IMG/VR virus record: IMGVR_UViG_3300043409_000036
Span: 1-33,839 of that record
Direction: 5' to 3' (one strand)
DNA from: a virus
DNA length: 33,839 nt
Shown: in pieces, positions 6,060 to 32,872 of the stretch
Layout of the letters: each line of letters starts with the position of its first letter
Numbering within the stretch: position 1 is the stretch's first letter
Translations under genes and position numbers: made by a program
Notes under the pieces: generated by a model
The model's database searches: none
Told to the model about the DNA's origin: nothing
What the model saw: only the letters and a program-made list of their open reading frames with translations

Positions 6060-6490
6060 TCCTGATAGGCCATGAAGTAGGACATTGGGTAGCGGCAAGA
6101 AATTTTCAGATGTATTTTGAGGCCAACAGTCAATCAATTGGCTTGGAAAAAGATGGTGAAATTGTTGCTGGTGTAATTTATGAGGATTGGAACGGCCAAT
6201 CCATCATGTGCCACATAGCAATCATGGGCAACTTAACGCCAACATTCTTAGCCAAGATTTTTGACTACCCGTTTAGGCAGCTTGGAGCGCACAAAATAAT
6301 TGCACCAGTGGCAAGCGTAAACAGTGAAAGTATTCGACTTGTGACCAACATGGGGTTCAAAGAAGAAGCTAAAATTAAGGACGCGCACCTGTCAGGGGAC
6401 ATTGTTATTTTTACAATGACCAAAAATGAATGTCGTTTTTTAGGGGAAAAATATGGGAAAAAGCTCACCAACGCCACCAGCGCCGCCTGA
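6056..6490 (+). CDS. GNAT-type N-acetyltransferase
   Basis: A GTG start overlaps the previous stop (GTGA). The 144-residue product has GNAT features: an EKDGEIVAGVIYEDW beta-hairpin, a FDYPFRQLGAHKIIAPVASVNSES helix-strand pair, and the late IRLVTNMGFKEEA motif common to acetyl-CoA-binding folds. Phage GNATs of this kind often sit among tail genes. Proposed roles include modifying a host or virion protein, but no substrate is known. The last 38 nt overlap the start of the next gene. Confidence 0.8.
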   Translation: MILIGHEVGHWVAARNFQMYFEANSQSIGLEKDGEIVAGVIYEDWNGQSIMCHIAIMGNLTPTFLAKIFDYPFRQLGAHKIIAPVASVNSESIRLVTNMGFKEEAKIKDAHLSGDIVIFTMTKNECRFLGEKYGKKLTNATSAA

Positions 6491-8000
6491 TCCGGTATTA
6501 ACGGCACAAGCGCAAGCGGCGGCTAACAAAGAGTCGGCAATGGCTACGACTCAGCTTGGCAATCCCAACATTGTCAACCCCTATGGCACATCAACCACGC
6601 AATATGGCGCAGATGCGTTTTTTGCGGCAAACCCTGGCGCTTTAGCTGAATTTAAAGCAGACCCTGGCGGCATGACGGCTTTGGAATACGCCAAGCAATA
6701 TTCTGCTGACCGGCCAGGCATGGCAAATTCCTATAGCGAGTACCGGCCTTTTGTAACGCAATCGCTAAATCCAGAATCACAAAGAATTCTTGATGCCCAA
6801 CAGCAAACAAAATTGCAACTGGCAGACTTGTCAAATTTGGGCGCAACAAACGCAAGCAAAGTATTGAACACGCCTTTTGCGTTTACTGGCCCAGCGGCAA
6901 ACACAACTATTACCAAGGCTGGTGAAATTTCTCAAGGGCCAGATGCTAGCCAATTTTTAGCGGGTGGTGGGCCTAACGCTGGTAATTTTATGGCTGGAGC
7001 AGGGCCAAGCGCAGCTAACTTTATGGCAAGCAGGGGGCTTGACACATCCAATGTTGCGGCCATGCCAATCAATGCTGGCATGTCGGCGCAAAACGCAATC
7101 ATGGCGCGGTTAGAGCCACAAATGGCACGGCAGCGAGTGAGCACAGAAACGCAACTGATTAACCAAGGCTTGCGCCCTGGCTCAGAGGCTTACAACAATG
7201 CGGCAACCCTGCTGGGTCAACAAGAGAACGATCAACGCACTCAGGCGGTTTTACAGGGTCTTGGCTTGGACTTGAGCGCTAATGCTCAAGGCTATGGTCA
7301 AGCGCTGACATCAGGGCAGTTTGGCAATCAAGCACAAGCGCAAAACTTTGGGCAAGGCAATATTCAGCAGGGAATTTTTAACGCAGCGCAAGCTCAAAAC
7401 TTTGGGCAAGGCACGACTGCACAGAATACGGCAAATCAAGCGGTTGGGCAGAACTACACGCAAAACTTCAACACTGTGGCGCAAAACAATGCGGCGCAAC
7501 AACAACAATTTGCACAAAACGCACAACGTGCTGCATTTGAAAATCAAGCGCGGCAGCAAGCACTGGCAGAGGCTATCCAGCAACGCCAAATGCCGCTAAA
7601 TGAAATCTCGGCATTGATGTCTGGATCACAAATAGCTAACCCGCAATTTCAATCCTACACAGGCGCAAATGTAGCGGCAGCGCCAATTGCTCAGACTATG
7701 CAAAACGCTTACACGGGTCAACAAAACGCATACAACCAAAACGTAGCGTCACAAAACGCAAACACGGCTGGTCTGTTTAGTCTTGGCTCGGCTGCAATTG
7801 GGCTGTCTGATCGCCGGTTAAAAACCAACATCAAACGCATTGGTACTCACAAACTTGGGGTTGGCATCTATGAGTACGACATCATGGGCAAGCACGATGT
7901 TGGCGTAATGGCGCAAGAGGTTATCAATGTGTTGCCTGAAGCAATTCACATTCATCCAAGTGGCTACATGATGGTCGATTACGGGAGGTTAAATGCCTGA
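6453..8000 (+). CDS. Gln/Asn/Ala-rich virion protein with C-terminal S74 (intramolecular chaperone) domain
   Basis: The 515-residue protein begins with a PxPP segment and an LGNPNIVNPYG motif common to internal virion proteins of podoviruses. It has short repeats at about 160-200 (GPNAGNFMAG, GPSAANFMAS) and AQNFGQG repeats at about 290-330, and is very rich in Gln, Asn and Ala. The last 64 residues match peptidase S74: S452-D-R-R-L-K457, then YEYDI, GVMAQEV and GYMMVDYGRL. In endosialidase-type S74 domains the Ser and the Lys five residues later form the self-cleavage dyad, and both are present. The domain usually trims trimeric fibres. Here it is on a likely internal or tail-tip protein. 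An AGGGGA ribosome site precedes the ATG. Confidence 0.8.
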   Translation: MGKSSPTPPAPPDPVLTAQAQAAANKESAMATTQLGNPNIVNPYGTSTTQYGADAFFAANPGALAEFKADPGGMTALEYAKQYSADRPGMANSYSEYRPFVTQSLNPESQRILDAQQQTKLQLADLSNLGATNASKVLNTPFAFTGPAANTTITKAGEISQGPDASQFLAGGGPNAGNFMAGAGPSAANFMASRGLDTSNVAAMPINAGMSAQNAIMARLEPQMARQRVSTETQLINQGLRPGSEAYNNAATLLGQQENDQRTQAVLQGLGLDLSANAQGYGQALTSGQFGNQAQAQNFGQGNIQQGIFNAAQAQNFGQGTTAQNTANQAVGQNYTQNFNTVAQNNAAQQQQFAQNAQRAAFENQARQQALAEAIQQRQMPLNEISALMSGSQIANPQFQSYTGANVAAAPIAQTMQNAYTGQQNAYNQNVASQNANTAGLFSLGSAAIGLSDRRLKTNIKRIGTHKLGVGIYEYDIMGKHDVGVMAQEVINVLPEAIHIHPSGYMMVDYGRLNA

Positions 8001-22023: not shown

Positions 22024-22386
22024 ATGGCTCAAGATAAAGATGTTGCAGACTTCATTTCCACGCTGCTGCACAGTGGGACAGTGACCCATTTCATGCACTT
22101 ATCCACAGATTCTTTTGCCACGCACATGGCACTAGGTGGCTACTACACAGAAATCATTGAACTGGTAGACAACTTTGCAGAGGCTTACTCTGGTGCGTAC
22201 CAGAAAATCAAGACTTTCCCTGAGAATTTCCACAATGCTAAAGACCCTGTGCGGTACTTGGAAGGCATTTGCGATTACGTCAAAGACAACAGAAAAGCAA
22301 TGCCGAATGACAGCCAGCTACAAAACATCATTGATGAAATTGCAGCCCTGATTGATTCAACGCTGTACAAGCTGACGCTGAAATGA
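22024..22386 (+). CDS. ferritin-like helical phage protein (DUF5856-like)
   Basis: AAGGAG precedes the ATG by 7 nt. The 120-residue product is an all-helical bundle: VADFISTLLHSGTVTHFMHL, SFATHMALGGYYTEIIELVDNFAEAY, and LQNIIDEIAALIDSTLYKLT. It matches a phage family I recall as DUF5856, related in pattern to Dps/ferritin four-helix proteins (H and E residues in helices 1 and 2). A DNA-protection or DNA-binding role has been suggested by fold only. It directly follows the structured RNA and could be controlled by it. ATGA couples it to the glycosyltransferase. Confidence 0.75.
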   Translation: MAQDKDVADFISTLLHSGTVTHFMHLSTDSFATHMALGGYYTEIIELVDNFAEAYSGAYQKIKTFPENFHNAKDPVRYLEGICDYVKDNRKAMPNDSQLQNIIDEIAALIDSTLYKLTLK

Positions 22387-23066
22387 TCCGAATTTTTGCC
22401 GGATACGACCCAAGGGAAGCAGTAGGCTTTCACGTTTTCTGTCAAAGCCTGATCGAGCGCACCAAAGAGCCGGTAGCCATTACGCCTTTCTACGGCAAGC
22501 AGCGGGACGGCACAAACGCCTTCATCTATCAAAGATTCCTAGTCCCGTATTTTACAGGCTTTAAGGGCAAGGCAATCTTCATGGATGCCAGCGACATGCT
22601 GATGCTGGGCGACATAGACGATCTAAACAAGCTATTTGACCCCACAAAGGCCGTACAGGTCGTTAAACACGACTACAAGACCCATCACCCTCGAAAGTAC
22701 ATCAACACGCCTATGGAGTCTAAAAACGAGGACTACCCAAGGAAGAACTGGTCAAGCCTAATCCTGTGGAATTGTGAGCACCCGCGCAATAAAGTGTTAA
22801 CCCCTGATTTTGTAGATGACCACAGCGGATCAGACTTGCACAGGTTTACATGGTTGCCGGACTCACTGATTGGGGAATTGCCTAAACAGTGGAATGTGCT
22901 GGTGGGTGAACAGGACAACCCAAATGCCAAGATAGCGCATTACACTTTGGGCATACCGGAGTTTTACCATTACAAGGACTGTGACCACAGCAAGCCCTGG
23001 CACTCCACCCGCAGCAGAATGCTCAATGGCCTGATTAACATGAAAGACCAGCAAAATGGCGACTGA
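22383..23066 (+). CDS. GT-A glycosyltransferase (GT8-like)
   Basis: The 227-residue protein starts RIFAGYDPREAVGFHVFCQSL and has the nucleotide-sugar-binding FMDASDMLMLGDIDDL stretch, with D68-A-S-D71 as the DxD-type metal motif. An ASSLILWNCEHPRN-like acceptor region and a C-terminal HYTLGIPEFYHYKDCDHSKPWH motif with the late histidine of the fold follow. This resembles the GT8-like phage glycosyltransferases common in aquatic phages. Substrate may be DNA, a virion protein or host surface sugar. It overlaps the next gene by 11 nt. Confidence 0.8.
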   Translation: MIRIFAGYDPREAVGFHVFCQSLIERTKEPVAITPFYGKQRDGTNAFIYQRFLVPYFTGFKGKAIFMDASDMLMLGDIDDLNKLFDPTKAVQVVKHDYKTHHPRKYINTPMESKNEDYPRKNWSSLILWNCEHPRNKVLTPDFVDDHSGSDLHRFTWLPDSLIGELPKQWNVLVGEQDNPNAKIAHYTLGIPEFYHYKDCDHSKPWHSTRSRMLNGLINMKDQQNGD

Positions 23067-23865
23067 ACAACAACTTGCCCAAGCGTTAAGCCCGTATGAC
23101 CCTAACTATTTGCAAAACCTAGCATTGGGCCAAGGAACACCATCTTTGCTTGGCAACACCACAACTGTGAAGCCAAAGCCAGTAAACAATCTTGCCCTTT
23201 TAGACAACACTGGCGATGTTTATAGCGATCCTAATCCTGGCTGGTCAGGCAAAACTGGTGCTGAACGGGCTGCTTTCTATGGTGAAAACCCTCCGTATGG
23301 CACAGTTTCGCGGGGGCTGCAAAATGTCTTTGATTTAACAACTTTAGGCATAGTCCAAAACTTAGTTGACCCTGATCGTGGCATGCGAGCAAGGGCCGAG
23401 TTTTCCGGTTTTAACCCTGACTTGGCTTCTTACAGCGGCGCTTCATTTGCTGAACAAAAAGCCATGAACGATGCCTTGGCTGCTCAGCAAGCAAGTAATA
23501 ATGCGGCTGAAGCAGGCATAGGAAGTTATGGCGGCGGTTCTTTTGCAGAACAGCAGGCCATGAACGATGCTTTAGCTGGACAAGCAGCAGCACAGGCGCA
23601 GCAAGATGCCGCAAACAACGCAAATGCACCATCAGCAGAAGCTAGTGGGCCAAGTGGATTAGGCACTGACGCTGGCGGTGACGGCTACGCTAAAGGCGGC
23701 AGGGTTAACAGAAACCATCTAACCGGCCCAGACCCGCAAGGCCCAGATCAAGGTTATGCACCTTTACAAAGTGGCGAATACGTCATCAAAAGAGATGCAG
23801 TGAGAAAGTACGGCGAAGGCATGTTAGGTAAGATCAACGCAGGCAAATACGCGCCAAGGGGCTGA
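23056..23865 (+). CDS. virion-associated protein with shared N-terminal tag
   Basis: The 269-residue protein starts MATEQQLAQALSP, 11 of 13 residues identical to the start of the next gene product. The middle has two near-identical 15-residue units (FAEQKAMNDALAAQQ and FAEQQAMNDALAGQA). The C-terminus has YAKGGRVNRNHLTGPDPQGP and GEYVIKRDAVRKYGEGML, a motif common in aquatic podophage virion proteins. It is otherwise Ala/Gln/Gly rich and probably extended. Given the shared tag and its position just ahead of the packaging genes, it is probably incorporated into the head, but this is inferred. Confidence 0.65.
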   Translation: MATEQQLAQALSPYDPNYLQNLALGQGTPSLLGNTTTVKPKPVNNLALLDNTGDVYSDPNPGWSGKTGAERAAFYGENPPYGTVSRGLQNVFDLTTLGIVQNLVDPDRGMRARAEFSGFNPDLASYSGASFAEQKAMNDALAAQQASNNAAEAGIGSYGGGSFAEQQAMNDALAGQAAAQAQQDAANNANAPSAEASGPSGLGTDAGGDGYAKGGRVNRNHLTGPDPQGPDQGYAPLQSGEYVIKRDAVRKYGEGMLGKINAGKYAPRG

Positions 23866-23866
23866 A

Positions 23867-25081
23867 ATGGCAACTGAACAAGAACTTGCTCAAGCCTTAG
23901 CCCCTGCTTTTGGGATGTATCCCAAGGCTTTTCGGGGCAACTACGGCAACCCGCAAGACGCTGCTAATTTGCCCGTAGATGTGCTGCGAGGGCGCACGGC
24001 TGGCTTGTTGGGTTTGCCTGGTGATTTGCTTAACATGTTGCAAAGCCCTAAGCCAATGGAGGCATTTGGCGACACGCAATATGAGCCAAAGATTAAAGTG
24101 CCGTATGACACAGAGCGTTTTCTTCAAACGCTGCCTTTAGCGCCAACATCAAGGGCTGGACAGGTTGCAGGCCAAGCGGCATCGTTTGTGCCGTTAAACC
24201 CTGCGCCAATAGTTAAGGCGGGAGTTGCGGGAGCCAAAGCTCTAGCTCCAACAGCGGCAAACATGGCCGAACAATACATGGTGAAGACAGGTGGGATTTT
24301 GCCCCTTGATGTTTACCACGGCACACCACACACATTGCCGCCAACAGCACGCAACCCACTTGGCGAGTTTGATGCGTCCAAGATTGGCACTGGTGAGGGA
24401 GCGCAGGCTTACGGGCATGGCATTTACACTGCTCAAAACCCTAATGTTGCAATTGAATATAAAAAAGCACTTTCAAACCCAGAAGTTGTTTTAAAAGATG
24501 GGACTAGGATTTCTAATCCCACTACTGGCTCACCTGAAGATGTAGCTAAAGCCTGGCTTGAAGAAGCCTATTTAAGTGGAGATAAAACCCCATTTGACAC
24601 AGCAATCAAAAAAGTTTCGATGTTGCGAAATTCTGCAAATAGTCCTAAACAATTTGATGGTGCGCTTGATGTGCTAAACAATTGGAAAAAAAGCGGTGCA
24701 TCAGTTGATCTGGGTGGTAATTTGTATAAAGCAAACCTTCCAGATGCAATGATTCCCAAAATGCTGGATTGGAACAAGCCATTGCGTGACCAGCCAGAAA
24801 TTTTAAAAATGCTTGAGAGTGCATATCGTGCTGATTATTTACGCATGTTTAAGGACAAACCTGGTAGCGATTTTTACAAAGCAATTTCTGGAGGTGGTGG
24901 TGTTGAGGATTTAAGAGCATCAGGTTCTTCCGAGTTACAAAAATTAGGCATTCCAGGCATCAAGTACCTTGACGAAGGCTCACGCATTAAGGGTGAAGGC
25001 ACACGCAACTTTGTCACTTTTCCTGGCGAAGAAAAAAACTTAACAATTTTGGAGCGCAATGCAGAAAAGAGTGTTAAATGA
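23867..25081 (+). CDS. putative virion-borne ADP-ribosyltransferase-like protein
   Basis: The 404-residue protein starts with the tag MATEQELAQALAP. Residues 30-135 resemble ejected-protein segments (NLPVDVLRGRTAGLLGLPGDL, GQVAGQAASFVPLNP). From 147 comes an ART-like domain of the polyvalent-protein type: VYHGTPH (150-154), FDASKIGTGEGAQAYGHGIYTA (168-189), a long insert, then LGIPGIKYLDEGSR, GTRNFVTF and LTILERN at the end. The H...Y pattern (YHGT, GHGIYTA) fits the H-Y-E class of ADP-ribosyltransferases. The third catalytic residue cannot be fixed by eye. It could be injected to modify host proteins, as T4 Alt is. Confidence 0.7.
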   Translation: MATEQELAQALAPAFGMYPKAFRGNYGNPQDAANLPVDVLRGRTAGLLGLPGDLLNMLQSPKPMEAFGDTQYEPKIKVPYDTERFLQTLPLAPTSRAGQVAGQAASFVPLNPAPIVKAGVAGAKALAPTAANMAEQYMVKTGGILPLDVYHGTPHTLPPTARNPLGEFDASKIGTGEGAQAYGHGIYTAQNPNVAIEYKKALSNPEVVLKDGTRISNPTTGSPEDVAKAWLEEAYLSGDKTPFDTAIKKVSMLRNSANSPKQFDGALDVLNNWKKSGASVDLGGNLYKANLPDAMIPKMLDWNKPLRDQPEILKMLESAYRADYLRMFKDKPGSDFYKAISGGGGVEDLRASGSSELQKLGIPGIKYLDEGSRIKGEGTRNFVTFPGEEKNLTILERNAEKSVK

Positions 25082-25398
25082 CTACAGACATAACTAAAGT
25101 AGCCAGTAGTAGAAAGAAGGCCGGTGGGCGAGTAGCGGGAACGCCAAACAAGGTCACAGCACAGGCTAGAGAGGCCATAGCACTGTTTGTTGATGACAAT
25201 GCACCTAGACTAGCCCAATGGCTCGATGCAGTCGCTAACGGCGATCCTGAGAATGATGTTAAGCCAAACCCAGCCAAGGCTTTTGAGCTATTTCAGAGCG
25301 TGATTGAATACCATGTGCCCAAGCTGGCTAGGACAGAACACACCGGCGCAGATGATGGCCCGATTGAAATGGTGGTGACATGGGCAAACGGGAAATAA
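25078..25398 (+). CDS. terS: terminase small subunit (putative)
   Basis: ATGA-coupled to the ART-like gene and overlapping the large subunit by 19 nt. The 106-residue product has a basic KKAGGRVAGTPNKVTAQAREAI start (about 13-34), an ALFVDDNAPRLAQWLDAV helix, and a PNPAKAFELFQSVIEYHVPKLARTEH motif common in small terminase-position proteins of podophages. It would recognise the packaging start on phage DNA and activate the motor. The identification relies mostly on position and pattern. Confidence 0.75.
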   Translation: MTTDITKVASSRKKAGGRVAGTPNKVTAQAREAIALFVDDNAPRLAQWLDAVANGDPENDVKPNPAKAFELFQSVIEYHVPKLARTEHTGADDGPIEMVVTWANGK

Positions 25399-26696
25399 TC
25401 CTGCCTTACTGCCCAAGGGACGCTTTCATGCCGTTCCACAATAGAACGGACAGATGGGCTTGTCTGGTGGCTCACCGAAGGGCTGGCAAGACAGTCGCAG
25501 CCATCAACGACATTATCAAACGGGCAATCATGGGTGACAAGATGGCTCAATACGCCTACATTGCCCCGTTCCGCAGCCAGGCCAAACGGGTGGCATGGGA
25601 CTATCTCAAGCATTACGCAGCGCCAATCACCAAAAACACCAACGAAGCTGACTTGCTGGTAGAGTTAGTTAACGGCGCAAAGATCATGCTGTTTGGCTCA
25701 GACAACGCTGATGCTATGCGGGGGCTTGGATTTAACGGGGTTTACCTTGACGAATACGGCGACTTTAAGCCTAGCGTATGGGGTAATGTCGTAAGACCGT
25801 GTTTGAGTGATCGCCTCGGCTGGGCCGTTTTTGGGGGCACGCCGAAGGGAAAAAATCAGTTCCATGACATTTACAGGGTTAGCCAAGCTACGCCAGGCTG
25901 GTTTCTGACCCGCTTGCCTGCCTCAGTGTCCAAGCTGCTGCCTGACTCAGAATTGAAGGACGCTCGGGATCAGTTAAGCCAAGACCAGTACGATCAAGAG
26001 TACGAGTGCAGCTTTGATGCGGCCATCCTTGGCGCTTACTACGGGCAAGAGATGCGCCTGGCTGATGAGGAAGGCCGAATTAAGGACTTACCCTTTGAGC
26101 CTGAAAGCCCTGTTTTTAGTGCATGGGACTTGGGGTACAGAGACGATACCGCGATCTGGTTTTACCAAGTGGTCAGGGGCGAGATCAGGGTTATGGACTA
26201 TTACGCAGTTTCTGGCGCAAGCATTGAGGAGATTGCGGAGGTGGTGGTTAACAAAGGCTACCGCTACACCCGCCATTACTTACCGCATGACGCACGGGCA
26301 AAGACGTTGGCATCAGGCGGCAAGTCGATTGTTGAGCAATTGGCGGCGCATTTGGGCGGCATGGCAAAGCTGGCAATCGTGCCGGATATTGGCATTCAGG
26401 ACGGCATTCAGGCGGTGCGGATGGTGCTGCCCAAGTGTTATTTTGACCCTAGCTGCGATGAGGGGCTAGAAGCACTCAGACAGTACCAAAGAGAATATGA
26501 TGAGGATAAGAAGGCTTTTAGGCAAAATCCTCGCCATGACTGGTGCTCACATCCAGCAGATGCGTTTAGAATGTTAGCAGTGGCCTACCGGCAAGACAAC
26601 AAAGACCAAGCGCCACCTAAAGGCAAAACCCTGCAAACCATTACTCTCGATGAGATGTGGGAATTTGAGACTACTCACAAACAGGAGCGAATATGA
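25380..26696 (+). CDS. terL: terminase large subunit
   Basis: The 438-residue protein has all expected motifs: Walker A HRRAGKT (32-38), Walker B VYLDEYG (121-127), coupling motif GGTPKGKN (152-159), and the RNase H-like nuclease acids in SAWDLGYRDDTAIW (D250), PHDA (D304) and HPADAFRM (D394). It drives ATP-dependent packaging into the portal and makes the terminal cut. Length is normal for a compact TerL. Confidence 0.95.
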   Translation: MGKREIILPYCPRDAFMPFHNRTDRWACLVAHRRAGKTVAAINDIIKRAIMGDKMAQYAYIAPFRSQAKRVAWDYLKHYAAPITKNTNEADLLVELVNGAKIMLFGSDNADAMRGLGFNGVYLDEYGDFKPSVWGNVVRPCLSDRLGWAVFGGTPKGKNQFHDIYRVSQATPGWFLTRLPASVSKLLPDSELKDARDQLSQDQYDQEYECSFDAAILGAYYGQEMRLADEEGRIKDLPFEPESPVFSAWDLGYRDDTAIWFYQVVRGEIRVMDYYAVSGASIEEIAEVVVNKGYRYTRHYLPHDARAKTLASGGKSIVEQLAAHLGGMAKLAIVPDIGIQDGIQAVRMVLPKCYFDPSCDEGLEALRQYQREYDEDKKAFRQNPRHDWCSHPADAFRMLAVAYRQDNKDQAPPKGKTLQTITLDEMWEFETTHKQERI

Positions 26697-26968
26697 GCCA
26701 GCCAGTAGCAGAAGTCGGTGCATACAAAAACATGACCGCAACAGGCGATGTAACCACAGGCCCATGCCAGCTTATTGGGTTTTATGTCAACAGCACTAGT
26801 TCAGGCACTGTGGTGCTTAAAGATGGTGGATCAAGCGGAACAGTCATATCTGGAACGATCACGCCAGCCATAGGCTTTCACCGATACCCAGCTAATGTGG
26901 GCACAAGCCTGCATTTTACTGAGGGCGGCACGATTGACATCACCTTCTTCTTTGCTGCTGGCTTCTAA
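26693..26968 (+). CDS. small beta-rich head protein
   Basis: ATGA-coupled to terL and TAATG-coupled to the portal. The 91-residue product is almost all beta: YKNMTATGDVTTGPCQLIGFYVNSTSSGTVVLKDG, GTVISGTITPAIGFHRYPANVG, and LHFTEGGTIDITFFFAAGF. This resembles small decoration or stabilisation proteins of phage heads, and the same fold recurs in terL-portal intervals of related phages. The role is inferred. Confidence 0.65.
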   Translation: MSQPVAEVGAYKNMTATGDVTTGPCQLIGFYVNSTSSGTVVLKDGGSSGTVISGTITPAIGFHRYPANVGTSLHFTEGGTIDITFFFAAGF

Positions 26969-29268
26969 TGGCTTACGAAGAAAACGGCGCATACGAGGGC
27001 GAAGACCCTGGCCCTTATTGGCATGACCAGATAGAGAACGCCGAAAAGGTGTTTGAAAAGTGGGAAAAGCGCGGCCACAAGGTCGTTAAGCGTTACCGCG
27101 ATGAGCGCGATGCCATCGAGATGCCACGGATGAAGTTCAATATCCTGTGGTCAAACATTCAGGTGCTGATGCCTAGCCTTTACGGGCGGCAAGCCAAACC
27201 TGAAGTCTCACGCCGATACATGGATCAAGACCCTGTAGGGCGCTTGGCCTCCACAATGCTTGAGCGAGTGATTGAGTACGAAACAACGCAATTTAACGAC
27301 TTTGACAGCGCAATGACCAACGCTGTGCAAGACCGGCTGCTGCCAGGTCGAGGCACGGCTTGGATTCGTTACGAGCCTACTATTGTCGGCCAGCCTGAAA
27401 TGGTTGAGGCGATGGAAGAATCGGCAGAGACTTCACTGTCAAACGTGCAAGAGTCGGGCGAGTCGATTGATTCTGCCCACAGCCCTGTGGATTACGTCTA
27501 TTGGAGCGACTTCATACACAGCCCAGCGCGGACATGGGACGAAGTCTGGTGGGTTGCCCGTGCCGTCTACATGACCAAAGAAGAAGGCATTGAGCGCTTT
27601 GGCGAAGTGTTTGCAAATGTTGGCTTGTCTTCACAAAACACGGATGAAGACAGCAAAAACCCAATGACGGCAAAGACCACCTATGAGAAAAAGGCAAAGG
27701 TCTTTGAAATTTGGAACAAGCGCACGTTTAAGGTGTGCTGGGTTGCCAAGAATTACCCGCTGTCATTGGATGAAGTAGATGATCCGCTAGAGTTAGAGGG
27801 CTTCTTCCCATGCCCTAAACCGCTGATGGCGACTACAACCACCGGCTCACTGATCCCAATTCCTGATTACTGTGAATATGAGGATCAGGCACAAGAACTT
27901 GACAACCTGACACAGCGCATTTACTTGCTGACCAAGGCTTGCAAGGCTGTTGGTGTGTTTAACGCTGAGTTTAAAGAGTTGGCGCGGATGTTTAGCGAGG
28001 GCGTAGACAACAAGCTATTCCCTGTGACTGCATGGGCAGCGATGAGCGAAAAGGGTGGGCTGAAGGGTGCTATCGACATGATGGACACCTCGCAGATCAT
28101 CATCACGCTGCGCGAGTTGTACGCATCACGGGAGCAAGTCAAGCAGTCTATCTACGAAATCATGGGCATTTCGGACATTCTGCGCGGCTCATCTAAGGCC
28201 ACGGAGACGCTTGGCGCACAGCAGCTTAAAGCTAATTTTGGCAGCTTGCGACTAAAAAGCAGCCAGGGCGATGTGGCGAGGTTTGCCACTGAAATCTTTA
28301 AGCTCAAAGCGCAAGTTATCTGTAAGTTTTACCCGCCTGAGTTGATTGTCGAGATGTCGGGTGTGATGAACACGCCAGATGGTCAAGACCCGCAAATGCT
28401 GCAAGCTGCGATCCAGATGCTGTCAAACAGCACTATCCGCGACTTCCACATTGCAGTCGAGGCTGACAGCCTGGCCCAGATTGATGAGCAAGCAGAGAAG
28501 CAAGGCGCACAAGAGGCAATAGCAGCTATTGGCGCATTTTTGCGTGAAGCAATCCCCATGATTGGCGGTGCGCCAGAGACTTTGCCAATGGCCTCGGAAA
28601 TGTTGCTGTTCTTAGTGCGCCGGTATAGGGCTGGCAGAAGTTTAGAGTCGGCTGTAGAGCGAGCAATGAAGGCGCTGCAAGACAAGGCAGACCAAGCCAA
28701 GCAAATGCCGCCACAGCCTGATCCTGAACAGATGAAGATGCAAGCGCTGGGTCAGTCTGAGCAAATGAAGATGCAGGCTCAAGCCCAAACAGATCAGATG
28801 AAAATGCAGGCAGATGCACAGATGGCGCAGGCTAAGGCCCAGCTAGACATGCAATTGCAGCAGATGAAGATGCAGTCAGATATGCAATTGGAGCAAATGA
28901 GGGCTGAGTTGGAGACTGCTAAGCAAAACACCGAAATGCAGATCAAGGCCAGAGAAATGGCCGGAAGGGAAGAATATGAGCGATGGAAAGCAGAACTTGA
29001 CGCAGCGACTAAAATCATGGTGGCTCGGATTGGTAGCAACCCTGGAGTCGATCTTCCTGTGGTTGAAGCAGCGGCTGCTCAAATAACCAACGAGCTAGGC
29101 GGCACAATTGTGTCGGCAATGGACAAGATTGCCATGATGCACGACCAAATGGCTAACATGCACGGCGAGTCAATGCAGAACATTGGCATGGCTATGCAAA
29201 GGCTCAATGCGCCCAAAAAAGTGGTTAGGGGTGCTGATGGCTTAGTGATTGGTGTGGAGACAGCATGA
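26968..29268 (+). CDS. portal protein (P22-type with long coiled-coil barrel)
   Basis: The 766-residue protein has typical podophage portal features: an N-terminal helical wing (YWHDQIENAEKVFEKWEKRGHKVVKRYRDER), KFNILWSNIQVLMPSLYGRQAKPEV, a WIRYEP clip region, and a stem region around ASREQVKQSIYEIMGISDILRGSSKATETLGAQQLKANFGSLRL-type sequence. From about 590 there is a long Met/Gln-rich coiled coil with a tandem QMKMQA unit, recalling the barrel of P22 gp1. It forms the dodecameric DNA gate. The repeated DNA in the coiled-coil part is about 28730-28890. Confidence 0.92.
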   Translation: MAYEENGAYEGEDPGPYWHDQIENAEKVFEKWEKRGHKVVKRYRDERDAIEMPRMKFNILWSNIQVLMPSLYGRQAKPEVSRRYMDQDPVGRLASTMLERVIEYETTQFNDFDSAMTNAVQDRLLPGRGTAWIRYEPTIVGQPEMVEAMEESAETSLSNVQESGESIDSAHSPVDYVYWSDFIHSPARTWDEVWWVARAVYMTKEEGIERFGEVFANVGLSSQNTDEDSKNPMTAKTTYEKKAKVFEIWNKRTFKVCWVAKNYPLSLDEVDDPLELEGFFPCPKPLMATTTTGSLIPIPDYCEYEDQAQELDNLTQRIYLLTKACKAVGVFNAEFKELARMFSEGVDNKLFPVTAWAAMSEKGGLKGAIDMMDTSQIIITLRELYASREQVKQSIYEIMGISDILRGSSKATETLGAQQLKANFGSLRLKSSQGDVARFATEIFKLKAQVICKFYPPELIVEMSGVMNTPDGQDPQMLQAAIQMLSNSTIRDFHIAVEADSLAQIDEQAEKQGAQEAIAAIGAFLREAIPMIGGAPETLPMASEMLLFLVRRYRAGRSLESAVERAMKALQDKADQAKQMPPQPDPEQMKMQALGQSEQMKMQAQAQTDQMKMQADAQMAQAKAQLDMQLQQMKMQSDMQLEQMRAELETAKQNTEMQIKAREMAGREEYERWKAELDAATKIMVARIGSNPGVDLPVVEAAAAQITNELGGTIVSAMDKIAMMHDQMANMHGESMQNIGMAMQRLNAPKKVVRGADGLVIGVETA

Positions 29269-30443: not shown

Positions 30444-30862
30444 GGCGCACATGGATTTACCCTGCTGGCGGCGGCGAGCCTTACGAGGCTGGCTCATACC
30501 GCAGCGAGACAATGACCACTGTAATGGGCGATATTGAGCCATTTAGATCACCAGACGGCGTAATGATTTCAGGGCGCAAGCAGTGGCGCGAACATTTAAA
30601 AGCTACCGACAGCATCGAAATGGGCCATTCTGATGTAAAGTATGCTCAACAAGAGTGGAACAAGAAAAAGGAAATCCAGCGCGAAAGGCTCAAGGGCCAA
30701 GTCGCCACAGTGCAAGAGTTTGACCGGCCTGGCTCACCAATTGCGCCTATGCGGATGAGTGGATTAAACGTAGAAATGGCAAACCGGCTGCACAACAGAC
30801 CCATGCCGGAGCGCAAAGAGATGATTAAGATGACATTGGAACAAATGAAAAGGATGAAGTGA
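30440..30862 (+). CDS. unknown head-region protein (140 aa)
   Basis: ATGA-coupled. The product begins RRTWIYPAGGGEPYEAGSYRSE and has IEPFRSPDGVMISGRKQWREHLKATDSIEMGHSDVKYAQQEWNKKK. The DG-ISGRKQWREHLKAT-E-GHSDVK pattern is shared by a common phage protein of the pre-scaffold position. The C-terminus is Met/Lys-rich and helical. It may assist head assembly. No function is established. Confidence 0.7.
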   Translation: MRRTWIYPAGGGEPYEAGSYRSETMTTVMGDIEPFRSPDGVMISGRKQWREHLKATDSIEMGHSDVKYAQQEWNKKKEIQRERLKGQVATVQEFDRPGSPIAPMRMSGLNVEMANRLHNRPMPERKEMIKMTLEQMKRMK

Positions 30863-31878
30863 TGGAAAATGAAGTTGTCGCACCCGACACTGTAGATACA
30901 CCAGCACCAGAAGCGCCAGCGGTAGAGGTTAAAGCAGAGCCTAGCCGTGCAGACACAATCCGCGAGGCAATGAAGCAGTCGGACGATAAACCGCCCCGTC
31001 TTGCCCGTGCCCCTAAAGAGGCCAAAGAGCCAAAATTCCCCACTGAAAAAACCGAAGCACCGAAGATGGCAGAAATGCCTAAATCGTTGAAGCGCGAGTT
31101 AAAAGAGCATTGGGAAAGAGCGCCAAGCGAGCTACAGCAAGCCATTGCCCAGCGTGATGCTGACTACGAAAAGGGCATTGCCAGCTACAAAACCCGCGAT
31201 GCTGAGGCTAGGCAGATCACAGAGCAATTTGCGCCTTACGAGTGGATTTTGCGTAACGAGAACACTACTCCAGCAGCGGCCATTGGCCCACTGTTACAGA
31301 CGGCAGCACTGCTCAGGACAGGAACGCCACAGCAGAAGTCTCAGGCTGTTGCCCAGATGATCCAGCAGTTCCAGATTCCGTTAGACCAGGTGGCATCATA
31401 TTTCAATGGCGAGACGCGCCAGCCAGAAAATAATCATTACAATCAATTAGCGCAGCAAGTACAGCAATTGACCCAGCACATCACGCAAAGTCAATATGAA
31501 GCGCAGAAACAGAATGAAAATCGAGCACTCTCGGTTATCCAGCAGTTTGCAGGCGACCCTGCCAATCTGCATTTTGAGGCAGTCTCCGACAGAATGTTGC
31601 AGCTTCTCCAAGCTCCACAGGTGTTAGGCGATACAAGTCAGATGTCAGAACGCGAGAAATTGCAACTGGCTTATGACACGGCAGTGCGGCTTGATCCGGC
31701 TATCGCGCAGCAGTTTTATGCTCAACAGCAGCAAAACTCGCAGGCAGCTAACCAAGTGCAAAGAGCAAAAACAGCGGCGGTGCAAGTACGAGGAGCGCCA
31801 AGCTCCAGTATCGGCGGCGCTATTAATCAGTCAGATCGGCGAGCCGTTATAGCCAATGCGCTGCGGCAAGTCGGATAA
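30862..31878 (+). CDS. scaffolding protein (putative)
   Basis: The ATG at 30862 (TGATG with the upstream stop, AGGA before it) is preferred to a GTG three bases earlier. The 338-residue product is Pro/Ala/Glu rich at first, then has MPKSLKRELKEHWERAPSELQQAIAQRDADYEKGI, a long amphipathic helical middle, and a Gln-rich C-terminus ending SDRRAVIANALRQVG. Lack of globular motif, charge pattern and position directly before the capsid gene indicate the scaffold. I see no protease domain. Confidence 0.8.
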   Translation: MENEVVAPDTVDTPAPEAPAVEVKAEPSRADTIREAMKQSDDKPPRLARAPKEAKEPKFPTEKTEAPKMAEMPKSLKRELKEHWERAPSELQQAIAQRDADYEKGIASYKTRDAEARQITEQFAPYEWILRNENTTPAAAIGPLLQTAALLRTGTPQQKSQAVAQMIQQFQIPLDQVASYFNGETRQPENNHYNQLAQQVQQLTQHITQSQYEAQKQNENRALSVIQQFAGDPANLHFEAVSDRMLQLLQAPQVLGDTSQMSEREKLQLAYDTAVRLDPAIAQQFYAQQQQNSQAANQVQRAKTAAVQVRGAPSSSIGGAINQSDRRAVIANALRQVG

Positions 31879-31891
31879 AAAGGAGTAAGTT

Positions 31892-32872
31892 ATGGCATAC
31901 GCCAATAGTAATTACTCAGACGTTTTGGCAACGACCATTGAAAGTCGTTCCGGCATTGTTGCGGATAACGTAACAAAGAACAATGCTTTGCTAACCCGTC
32001 TGCGCGAGAAAGGCAAAATGAAGCCTTTTTCTGGTGGTTCGACAATCTTGCAAGAGTTGTCATTCCAAGCCAACAGCACAGCCATGTATTACTCGGGCGC
32101 TGAAACACTGAACATTTCCCCTGCGGACGTGATTAGTGCTGCTCAGTTTCCGATTAAACAGGCGGCAGTGGCAGTCACGATCAATGGTTTGGAAATGCTC
32201 CAAAACAGCGGCGAAGAACAGATCATCGATCTATTTGATGCCCGTCTGGACGTTGCTGAAGCATCAATCGAGAACTTGATCTCCACCGGTATTTATTCGG
32301 ATGGTACGGCCAACAACGGCAAGCAGATCACTGGTCTGCAAGCTATGGTGGTTGCATCACCTAGTACTGGTGTAGTGGGCGGTATTGATCGTTCTACATG
32401 GTCATTCTGGCGCAACCAGACTTTCGACTTCTCTACAGACCTTGGTGCTTCTGCATCTAGCTCTAACATTCAGTCGGGTTTCAACCGCCTGTATGCAAAG
32501 ACAAGTCGCGGCTCTGATGTGGTTGACTTGATCTTGTTGGATAACAATCTGTGGGGCTTCTTCATGTCGTCCCTGCAAAACATTCAGCGTTTCCCTGGCT
32601 CTAGCAAGATGGCCGAACTCGGCTTTGTTGCATCCAAGTACATGAATGCAGACGTTGTTCTAGACGGCGGTATCGGCGGGAATATTCCTACCGGCACAGG
32701 CTACTTCCTGAACACGAAGTACATTTTCTTCCGGCCTCACGCAAACCGCAATTTCGTCCCAATCGGTGATGAACGCATGAGCACCAATCAGGACGCAATC
32801 GTGCGCTTGATCGGTTGGGCTGGCAATATGACTGCCTCGGGACTTCAGTTCCAAGGCATCATGACTGAATAA
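31892..32872 (+). CDS. major capsid protein, HK97-type fold
   Basis: AAGGAG precedes the ATG. The 326-residue protein starts MAYANSNYSDVLATTIESRS, has SGGSTILQELSFQANSTAMYYSGAETLNISP, the spine-helix region INGLEMLQNSGEEQIIDLFDARLDVAEASIEN, TGLQAMV, LILLDNNLWGFFMSSLQNIQRF, and a C-terminal DAIVRLIGWAGNMTASGLQFQG. These fit capsid proteins of podophages with a scaffold-dependent HK97 fold. No cleaved delta domain is visible, consistent with the separate scaffold gene. Confidence 0.9.
   Translation: MAYANSNYSDVLATTIESRSGIVADNVTKNNALLTRLREKGKMKPFSGGSTILQELSFQANSTAMYYSGAETLNISPADVISAAQFPIKQAAVAVTINGLEMLQNSGEEQIIDLFDARLDVAEASIENLISTGIYSDGTANNGKQITGLQAMVVASPSTGVVGGIDRSTWSFWRNQTFDFSTDLGASASSSNIQSGFNRLYAKTSRGSDVVDLILLDNNLWGFFMSSLQNIQRFPGSSKMAELGFVASKYMNADVVLDGGIGGNIPTGTGYFLNTKYIFFRPHANRNFVPIGDERMSTNQDAIVRLIGWAGNMTASGLQFQGIMTE

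Follow-up and report, generated by a model that had tools for sequence, protein, structure and literature searches.

Why should two neighbouring phage genes encode proteins that begin with nearly the same 13 residues? The question arises in an IMG/VR virus record (IMGVR_UViG_3300043409_000036, positions 1 to 33,839), whose full 33,839 nucleotides were analysed and are referred to below as the window. Two adjacent open reading frames, P1 and P2, lie there just ahead of the terminase and head genes (Table 1; P1 always denotes the protein, the phage of that name being written phage P1). An initial annotation, made from the letters alone, had described this position, the two starts and an N-terminal match of 11 in 13 residues, and all of this was borne out. 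BLASTP aligns residues 1-13 of the two proteins with 11/13 identities, and a comparison of the N-terminal 13-mers of the 36 window genes ranks this pair best, the next best reaching 5/13. The probability of one 11/13 pair arising by chance among the 36 genes is ~3e-8, and degenerate DNA of the tag occurs twice in the window, with 0 occurrences expected. The remainders of P1 and P2 differ, as had also been claimed; beyond residue 13, BLASTP finds no meaningful similarity between them. The tag is indeed present on both genes, but its reach is wider than the two genes to which it had been assigned, since it is a property of a variable cargo slot. P1 and P2 start alike because this phage group tags nearly every protein that it carries in that slot.

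Table 1. Positions in the window of P1, P2, their parts and the neighbouring genes
Feature	Position	Strand	Details
Left border gene, GT8-type glycosyltransferase	22383..23066	+	Pfam PF01501, E 6e-6
Overlap of P1 start with glycosyltransferase stop	23056..23066	+	11 nt
P1	23056..23865	+	269 aa; tag, conserved first ~36 residues, variable low-complexity middle, conserved C-terminus
P1 tag, MATEQQLAQALSP	23056..23094	+	
Variable cargo slot between border genes	23067..25077	+	86 distinct slots compared
P1 C-terminal part (GGRVN..GPDPQGPD..GEYVIKR..KYGEGMLGKINAGK)	23689..23862	+	Conserved in relatives
P2	23867..25081	+	404 aa; tag, N-module A, ART domain
P2 tag, MATEQELAQALAP	23867..23905	+	
N-module A of P2 (AFGMYPKAFRGN..LPVDVLRGRTAGLLG..)	23906..24295	+	Replaced by other modules in relatives; approximate boundary
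ART domain of P2	24296..25063	+	H151 (codon 24317), Y187 (24425) and E389 (25031) conserved
Right border gene, small-terminase-like	25078..25398	+	Assigned by position before large terminase
Large terminase	25380..26696	+	
Portal protein	26968..29268	+	phrog_12082, E 3e-176
Possible scaffold or internal head protein	30859..31878	+	Position just before capsid gene; weak phrog_12254 'internal head protein', E 0.022
Major capsid protein	31892..32872	+	phrog_9953, E 1e-106

Slots were gathered through the IMG/VR relatives of both border genes, which yielded the 86 distinct examples. Thirteen of these contain no ORF of at least 90 aa, and every one of the 73 that do contain such an ORF encodes at least one protein with the core [LIM]-A-x-A-[LI], a loose motif on which this slot-wide count is based; the strict tag is narrower. 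The core usually reads YxxLAxAL. Two tagged proteins are found in 15 slots, and in 37 there is a tagged gene that does not come first. Among the forms taken by the tag are MATEQ[QE]LAQAL, MADYRDLAAAL, MPDYRALAQAL, MPDYSLLAQAL, MADKQQLAAAL and MDKEEMARAL, with further forms represented by MATDYPNMAKAL, MDDTYSEIAKAL and MPDLNDEQIYNQLAKAL. In the MATEQ clade, the 11-nt overlap with the glycosyltransferase gene dictates that the leading tagged gene, whichever it is, begins with MAT(E/D), and the real tag core therefore lies behind these residues.

The proteins that share this start are otherwise unrelated. Families were defined after cutting the first 28 residues, such that no BLAST similarity is left between them; by body there are eight in the slot, and the tag is found in seven, mutually unrelated, and absent from one (245-251 aa, three members). 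The 118 ORF clusters of the slot contigs include eight with the motif in most members, seven of which are the slot families; the sole non-slot cluster of this kind, set against ~111 other clusters, is an early gene (MKETMKNIATALVKAQ). Degenerate DNA of MATEQ[QE]LAxAL and MxDY(R/S)xLAxAL was also scanned over 2.9 million viral contigs, giving 20 and 77 stretches, respectively, and all matches bar one 24-aa ORF lie in this slot, a placement based on the border genes to either side wherever the contig is long enough to include them. A recurrent ORF of 51-53 aa (MPSHSAKQARFMQAAAHNPEFAKK..), found in the slots of L177, L143, L169 and others, is untagged. In L193 (215-1267), a single ORF begins as tagged cargo and ends as the C-terminal part of the large terminase; it is either a deletion or an assembly chimera. 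The annotations of BUCT555 and Mx8, the closest isolates, include no equivalent of the slot with its large cargo genes ahead of the terminase genes. Where bacterial genomes contain relatives of the capsid protein, these mostly occur with a different terminase, and no tagged slot was found at the two readable bacterial-genome loci with such relatives.

Analyzing substitutions in sets drawn from the slots, and not from the motif scan, we found that the peptide is conserved at the amino acid level. For the P2 tag of the MATEQ clade, a set chosen by its first six residues, pN is 0.000 and pS 0.325. In a family of 124-aa proteins, pN/pS is 0.152/0.626 in the tag versus 0.529/0.644 in the next 20 codons, and the values for DYR-type P2 proteins resemble those of this family; both DY-type sets had been cut to fit the motif, and their pN is somewhat lowered as a result. 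The conserved leucines and alanines of the tag are encoded by freely varying codons, L11 by up to five within one class. Judged by these patterns, the conserved object is the peptide, and the tag is under selection as protein. Large hydrophobic residues occupy position 4 in 78% of the pattern-collected tags as well as positions 7 and 11, the latter two being hydrophobic by the search pattern itself. A 4/7/11 spacing of this kind fits one face of a helix, and the core YxxLAxAL is probably a short amphipathic helix. Within a genome, the P1 and P2 tags resemble each other no more than tags from different genomes do, which gives no indication of ongoing gene conversion.

The tag is also separable from what it precedes. 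In P2-type proteins, it stands before at least three N-modules, A (AFGxYP...), B (IQATPRN...) and C (YGQDTGxITPDTL...). For the bodies of the 124-aa family, relatives exist in the phages Acibel007 and MEP301; these start without the tag region and sit beside the terminase or between the portal and capsid genes. A second phage lineage (lineage II) has a different large terminase and a portal without BLAST similarity to that of the lineage described so far (lineage I), and its cargo slot is located between the small and large terminase genes. Its slot proteins carry a tag of their own, roughly M[AP]xxN-x-L-[AT]-P...N-x-L (in short, NxLAP..NxL), which is more degenerate than that of lineage I and occurs in 43 of 63 slot ORFs versus 14 of 396 ORFs outside the slot; of the five 'background' clusters bearing it, three resemble further cargo genes. 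The lineage I core, on the other hand, is found in none of these 63 slot ORFs. A homologous body is nevertheless present in lineage II for 57 of the 82 tagged lineage I proteins, examples being alignments with 48% identity across 826 aa (from residues 55 and 14 onward) and with 58.5% across 470 aa (from residues 17 and 8 onward). Since homologous bodies appear under a different tag in lineage II, the tag follows the phage lineage and not the cargo. Taken together, sequence comparisons give good support to the view of the tag as an N-terminal unit that is under selection and specific to the phage lineage. A third set of phages (L018 9770-11011, L025 7415-8647) has the module GNPNIQRQGAKARALA.. 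behind other N-termini, MALLYEEDLMPFF and MMATSLLDELLGG, which may be further lineage tags.

What the tag precedes is diverse. P1 is an optional cargo gene, missing in several relatives of the window, and has no relative among phage records; its C-terminal part is related to tape-measure-type C-termini (PHROGs 13338, E 8e-7; 3547, E 8e-5). P1 also contains a second short motif, PSLLGNTT..KPK (window 23137-23175), and SLLGxITPKP is found ahead of the effector domain in P2-type proteins (for example in L043, ORF at 2122, L014 and L028); this motif may be a linker or a processing site. The C-termini of other slot proteins include ART, LPD23 with a DUF6782 metallopeptidase-like region, ParB-like and ParB-C-terminal-type domains, and some correspond to portions of very large phage proteins. 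A single effector domain is recognised in P2, alongside an unnamed N-module, and one relative combines LPD23 with a metallopeptidase-like region. ART-PolyVal, LPD23, ParB-like and metallopeptidase domains have all been described in polyvalent proteins, a class believed in many cases to be packaged (PMC5512222).

The effector domain of P2 had been proposed to be ART-like, and both profile and structural comparisons uphold this assignment. ART-PolyVal (PF18760) matches 15 of 22 relatives of P2 (best E 7e-8), the window protein alone remaining sub-threshold (E 0.028), and H151, Y187 and E389 are invariant in all 22, E389 being the presumable catalytic acid. The R-S-E active-site residues are not found in the P2 domain, H and Y being invariant at the corresponding motifs. 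Four relatives of P2 occur among phage records; they match its C-terminal part and stop short of the tag. Structure prediction for the whole of P2 was poor (pLDDT 49), and the ART part was therefore modelled alone: residues 144-399, predicted from 27 relatives, reach a mean pLDDT of 86, and this model of the C-terminal part aligns best with ART folds. In structure it comes closest to chain B of the cyanophage A4 pre-ejectosome (PDB 9k3a; VIA Z 10.5, 145 residues aligned at 13% identity), for which Foldseek alone is weak (E 0.07). Next, at Z 7-8.6, come diphtheria-toxin-like ARTs together with MbcT and ParT, two bacterial toxins. Values of Z below 8 can be generic, and the family call consequently rests on Pfam, motif and fold jointly; a search of the P2 ART profile against PDB sequences gave no credible relative. 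By its modelled fold and its invariant H, Y and E residues, the domain is predicted to be an ART of the H-Y-E type.

Several observations concern the genes around the slot. The large terminases of syntenic close relatives (window 25380-26696, L010 8253-9620, L049 1769-3136) have the same C-terminus and different N-terminal halves (MGKREI.. versus MRIQVPNNWQPRHYQRKAW..), a pattern that suggests exchange inside the terminase gene adjoining the cargo slot. Elsewhere in the window, positions 6453-8000 encode a virion structural protein (phrog_6121) with a C-terminal Peptidase_S74 intramolecular-chaperone domain. Two sugar-related genes are present in this small phage genome, the GT8-type glycosyltransferase (22383-23066) and a MptE-like/glycosyltransferase-like ORF at the left end (6-1382).

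The explanation that we favour, and consider reasonably probable, is that the tag would serve as an N-terminal address label by which slot cargo is loaded into the virion. An address label is suggested because the tag starts unrelated proteins of one slot and is kept as protein sequence, and because tagged cargo has untagged relatives elsewhere and differently tagged homologues in lineage II. Loading into the virion is favoured as the purpose of the address because the cargo domains are those of polyvalent proteins, because the P2 ART domain has its closest structural counterpart in an ejectosome protein located inside the virion, and because precedents exist in the T4 internal proteins (PMC9026906, PMC12373910) and DarB of phage P1 (PMC9024508). 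The initial annotation had suggested that the tag may be a packaging signal analogous to that of T4, and this proposal is partly upheld: the backing is strong but indirect, coming from the tag's autonomy on seven cargo families at a single locus, from its selection as protein and from its replacement on homologous cargo in lineage II, while the whole-gene duplication that the annotation had named as a refutation does not apply. In such a scheme, the peptide would bind a lineage-specific part of the assembling head or of its inner core, for which the putative scaffold or internal head protein encoded just before the capsid gene is a candidate receptor. Cargo made late would be loaded through the tag, enter the next host with the DNA and act early there, P2 as an H-Y-E-type ART on host targets or, alternatively, as a NAD-consuming enzyme of ART fold, and P1 possibly as a further internal protein.

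A peptide that docks cargo could also do so on another partner, such as the terminase, the portal, a chaperone or other cargo, with the cargo acting in the producing cell, for instance in the exclusion of rival phages. The slot adjoins terminase genes in both lineages, and defensive genes are common in variable phage slots. We nonetheless regard this arrangement as unlikely, given that the cargo domains belong to proteins often carried along with DNA and that the nearest fold match of the P2 domain is an ejectosome component.

Somewhat more doubtful still is the notion that the tag has no dedicated peptide function and is simply the retained 5' end of the slot gene, behind whose fixed start recombination captures cargo, the short stretch of shared DNA aiding cassette exchange. 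The arrangement of the genes is suggestive in this respect: the tag type tracks the phage lineage, and the position of P1 is exactly that between two tag copies. In relatives lacking P1, the P2 tag takes over the same 11-nt glycosyltransferase overlap and matches P1 tags at up to 31/33 nt. An exchange anchor would not, however, account for amino acids that are retained while synonymous sites vary, nor for the 37 slots in which a tagged gene is away from the border and the 15 with two tagged genes. Tags on unrelated first and second genes are left unexplained as well, and, as noted above, a shared genome makes the tags of P1 and P2 no more alike. That the 5' codons are an expression element common to slot genes, acting through translation start context, coupling or protein stability, appears very improbable: the first tagged gene of the MATEQ clade does overlap the upstream stop, but codons vary freely at the conserved leucines and alanines, the tag is retained at genes with quite different upstream sequence, and the remaining phage genes do without it. 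Finally, descent of P1 and P2 from a whole-gene duplication, which their adjacency, common strand and 11 shared residues might evoke and which similarity past the tag would have betrayed, can practically be discarded, as the BLASTP match stops at residue 13, Q6 of P1 and E6 of P2 are each retained separately in relatives, and the tag core is also found on five more unrelated families.

If the address-label reading is true, a simple sequence rule would mark the cargo of a whole uncultured phage group, and injected effectors would become predictable from metagenomes. It would also demonstrate that cargo and address evolve separately, and short tags for protein delivery by small phages would be on offer. 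N-terminal packaging signals have been established experimentally in few phages, T4 and phage P1 in the literature consulted. There is, in our estimate, an even chance that these small aquatic phages keep lineage-specific address peptides apart from their cargo, so that a moved effector module could be re-addressed by exchange of a ~12-residue tag and each lineage would own an open loading system for polymorphic injected proteins. Nature has already made such swaps, with the same body under different tags in the two lineages, and the idea is thus directly testable.

Known systems offer partial parallels. The closest is the capsid-targeting sequence (CTS) of T4, whose internal proteins Ip1-3 are homologous only in an N-terminal leader that directs packaging and are encoded in a hotspot (PMC12373910). 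Likewise, the tag described here is a short N-terminal peptide on otherwise unrelated proteins (seven families here; ~ten residues on small proteins in T4) of a variable cargo locus (86 slots). Positions 4 and 7, which matter most for targeting among the ten residues of the T4 CTS (PMC9026906), are prominently hydrophobic in both. There is no sign of homology: the tag has 2-4/11 identities with the CTS of IPII and IPIII, which is not above background, as 29 of 891 other N-termini reach at least 4, and common descent was therefore rejected. The T4 CTS is cut by the prohead protease, whereas no such protease was recognised among the phage head genes scanned, a search that distant families could escape, and T4-style cleavage of the tag is accordingly unsupported. 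In addition, the phage is small here, its cargo is modular and of polyvalent type, and packaging is a proposal drawn from sequence. The T4 ART Alt resembles P2 in being a phage ART expressed with virion genes, Alt being carried in the head and injected. It differs in belonging to the R-S-E clade (PMC5512222), whereas H, Y and E are invariant in P2 as in the ARTs of polyvalent proteins. The cyanophage A4 pre-ejectosome protein places an ART domain inside a virion, although, unlike P2, that domain belongs to a very large ejection protein.

Polyvalent proteins, known from phages and from conjugative elements, share with the slot proteins the effector domains ART-PolyVal, LPD23, ParB-like and metallopeptidase and an occurrence in portal-terminase phages. 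The slot proteins (240-865 aa), in contrast, mostly have one effector domain, an interchangeable N-module and a short tag, and no such tag is described in the accessible part of that account (PMC5512222). MuF polymorphic toxins (PMC5576092) are phage-borne too, by temperate phages, and combine a constant N-terminal part with variable C-terminal effectors, whereas the constant part here is only ~12 residues long and differs between lineages; no MuF domain was matched in P1, P2 or the slot relatives scanned. In phage P1, 30 N-terminal residues of DarB suffice for packaging into the head (PMC9024508), again a short N-terminal stretch that sends a polyvalent-type protein into the capsid, but one that serves a single large protein, where here one tag is spread over many unrelated slot proteins. 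Our search of open-licence papers found no such tag reported outside T4 and phage P1. By analogy with these two systems, the best-supported reading is that the tag works like their capsid-targeting sequences while belonging, by sequence, to neither.
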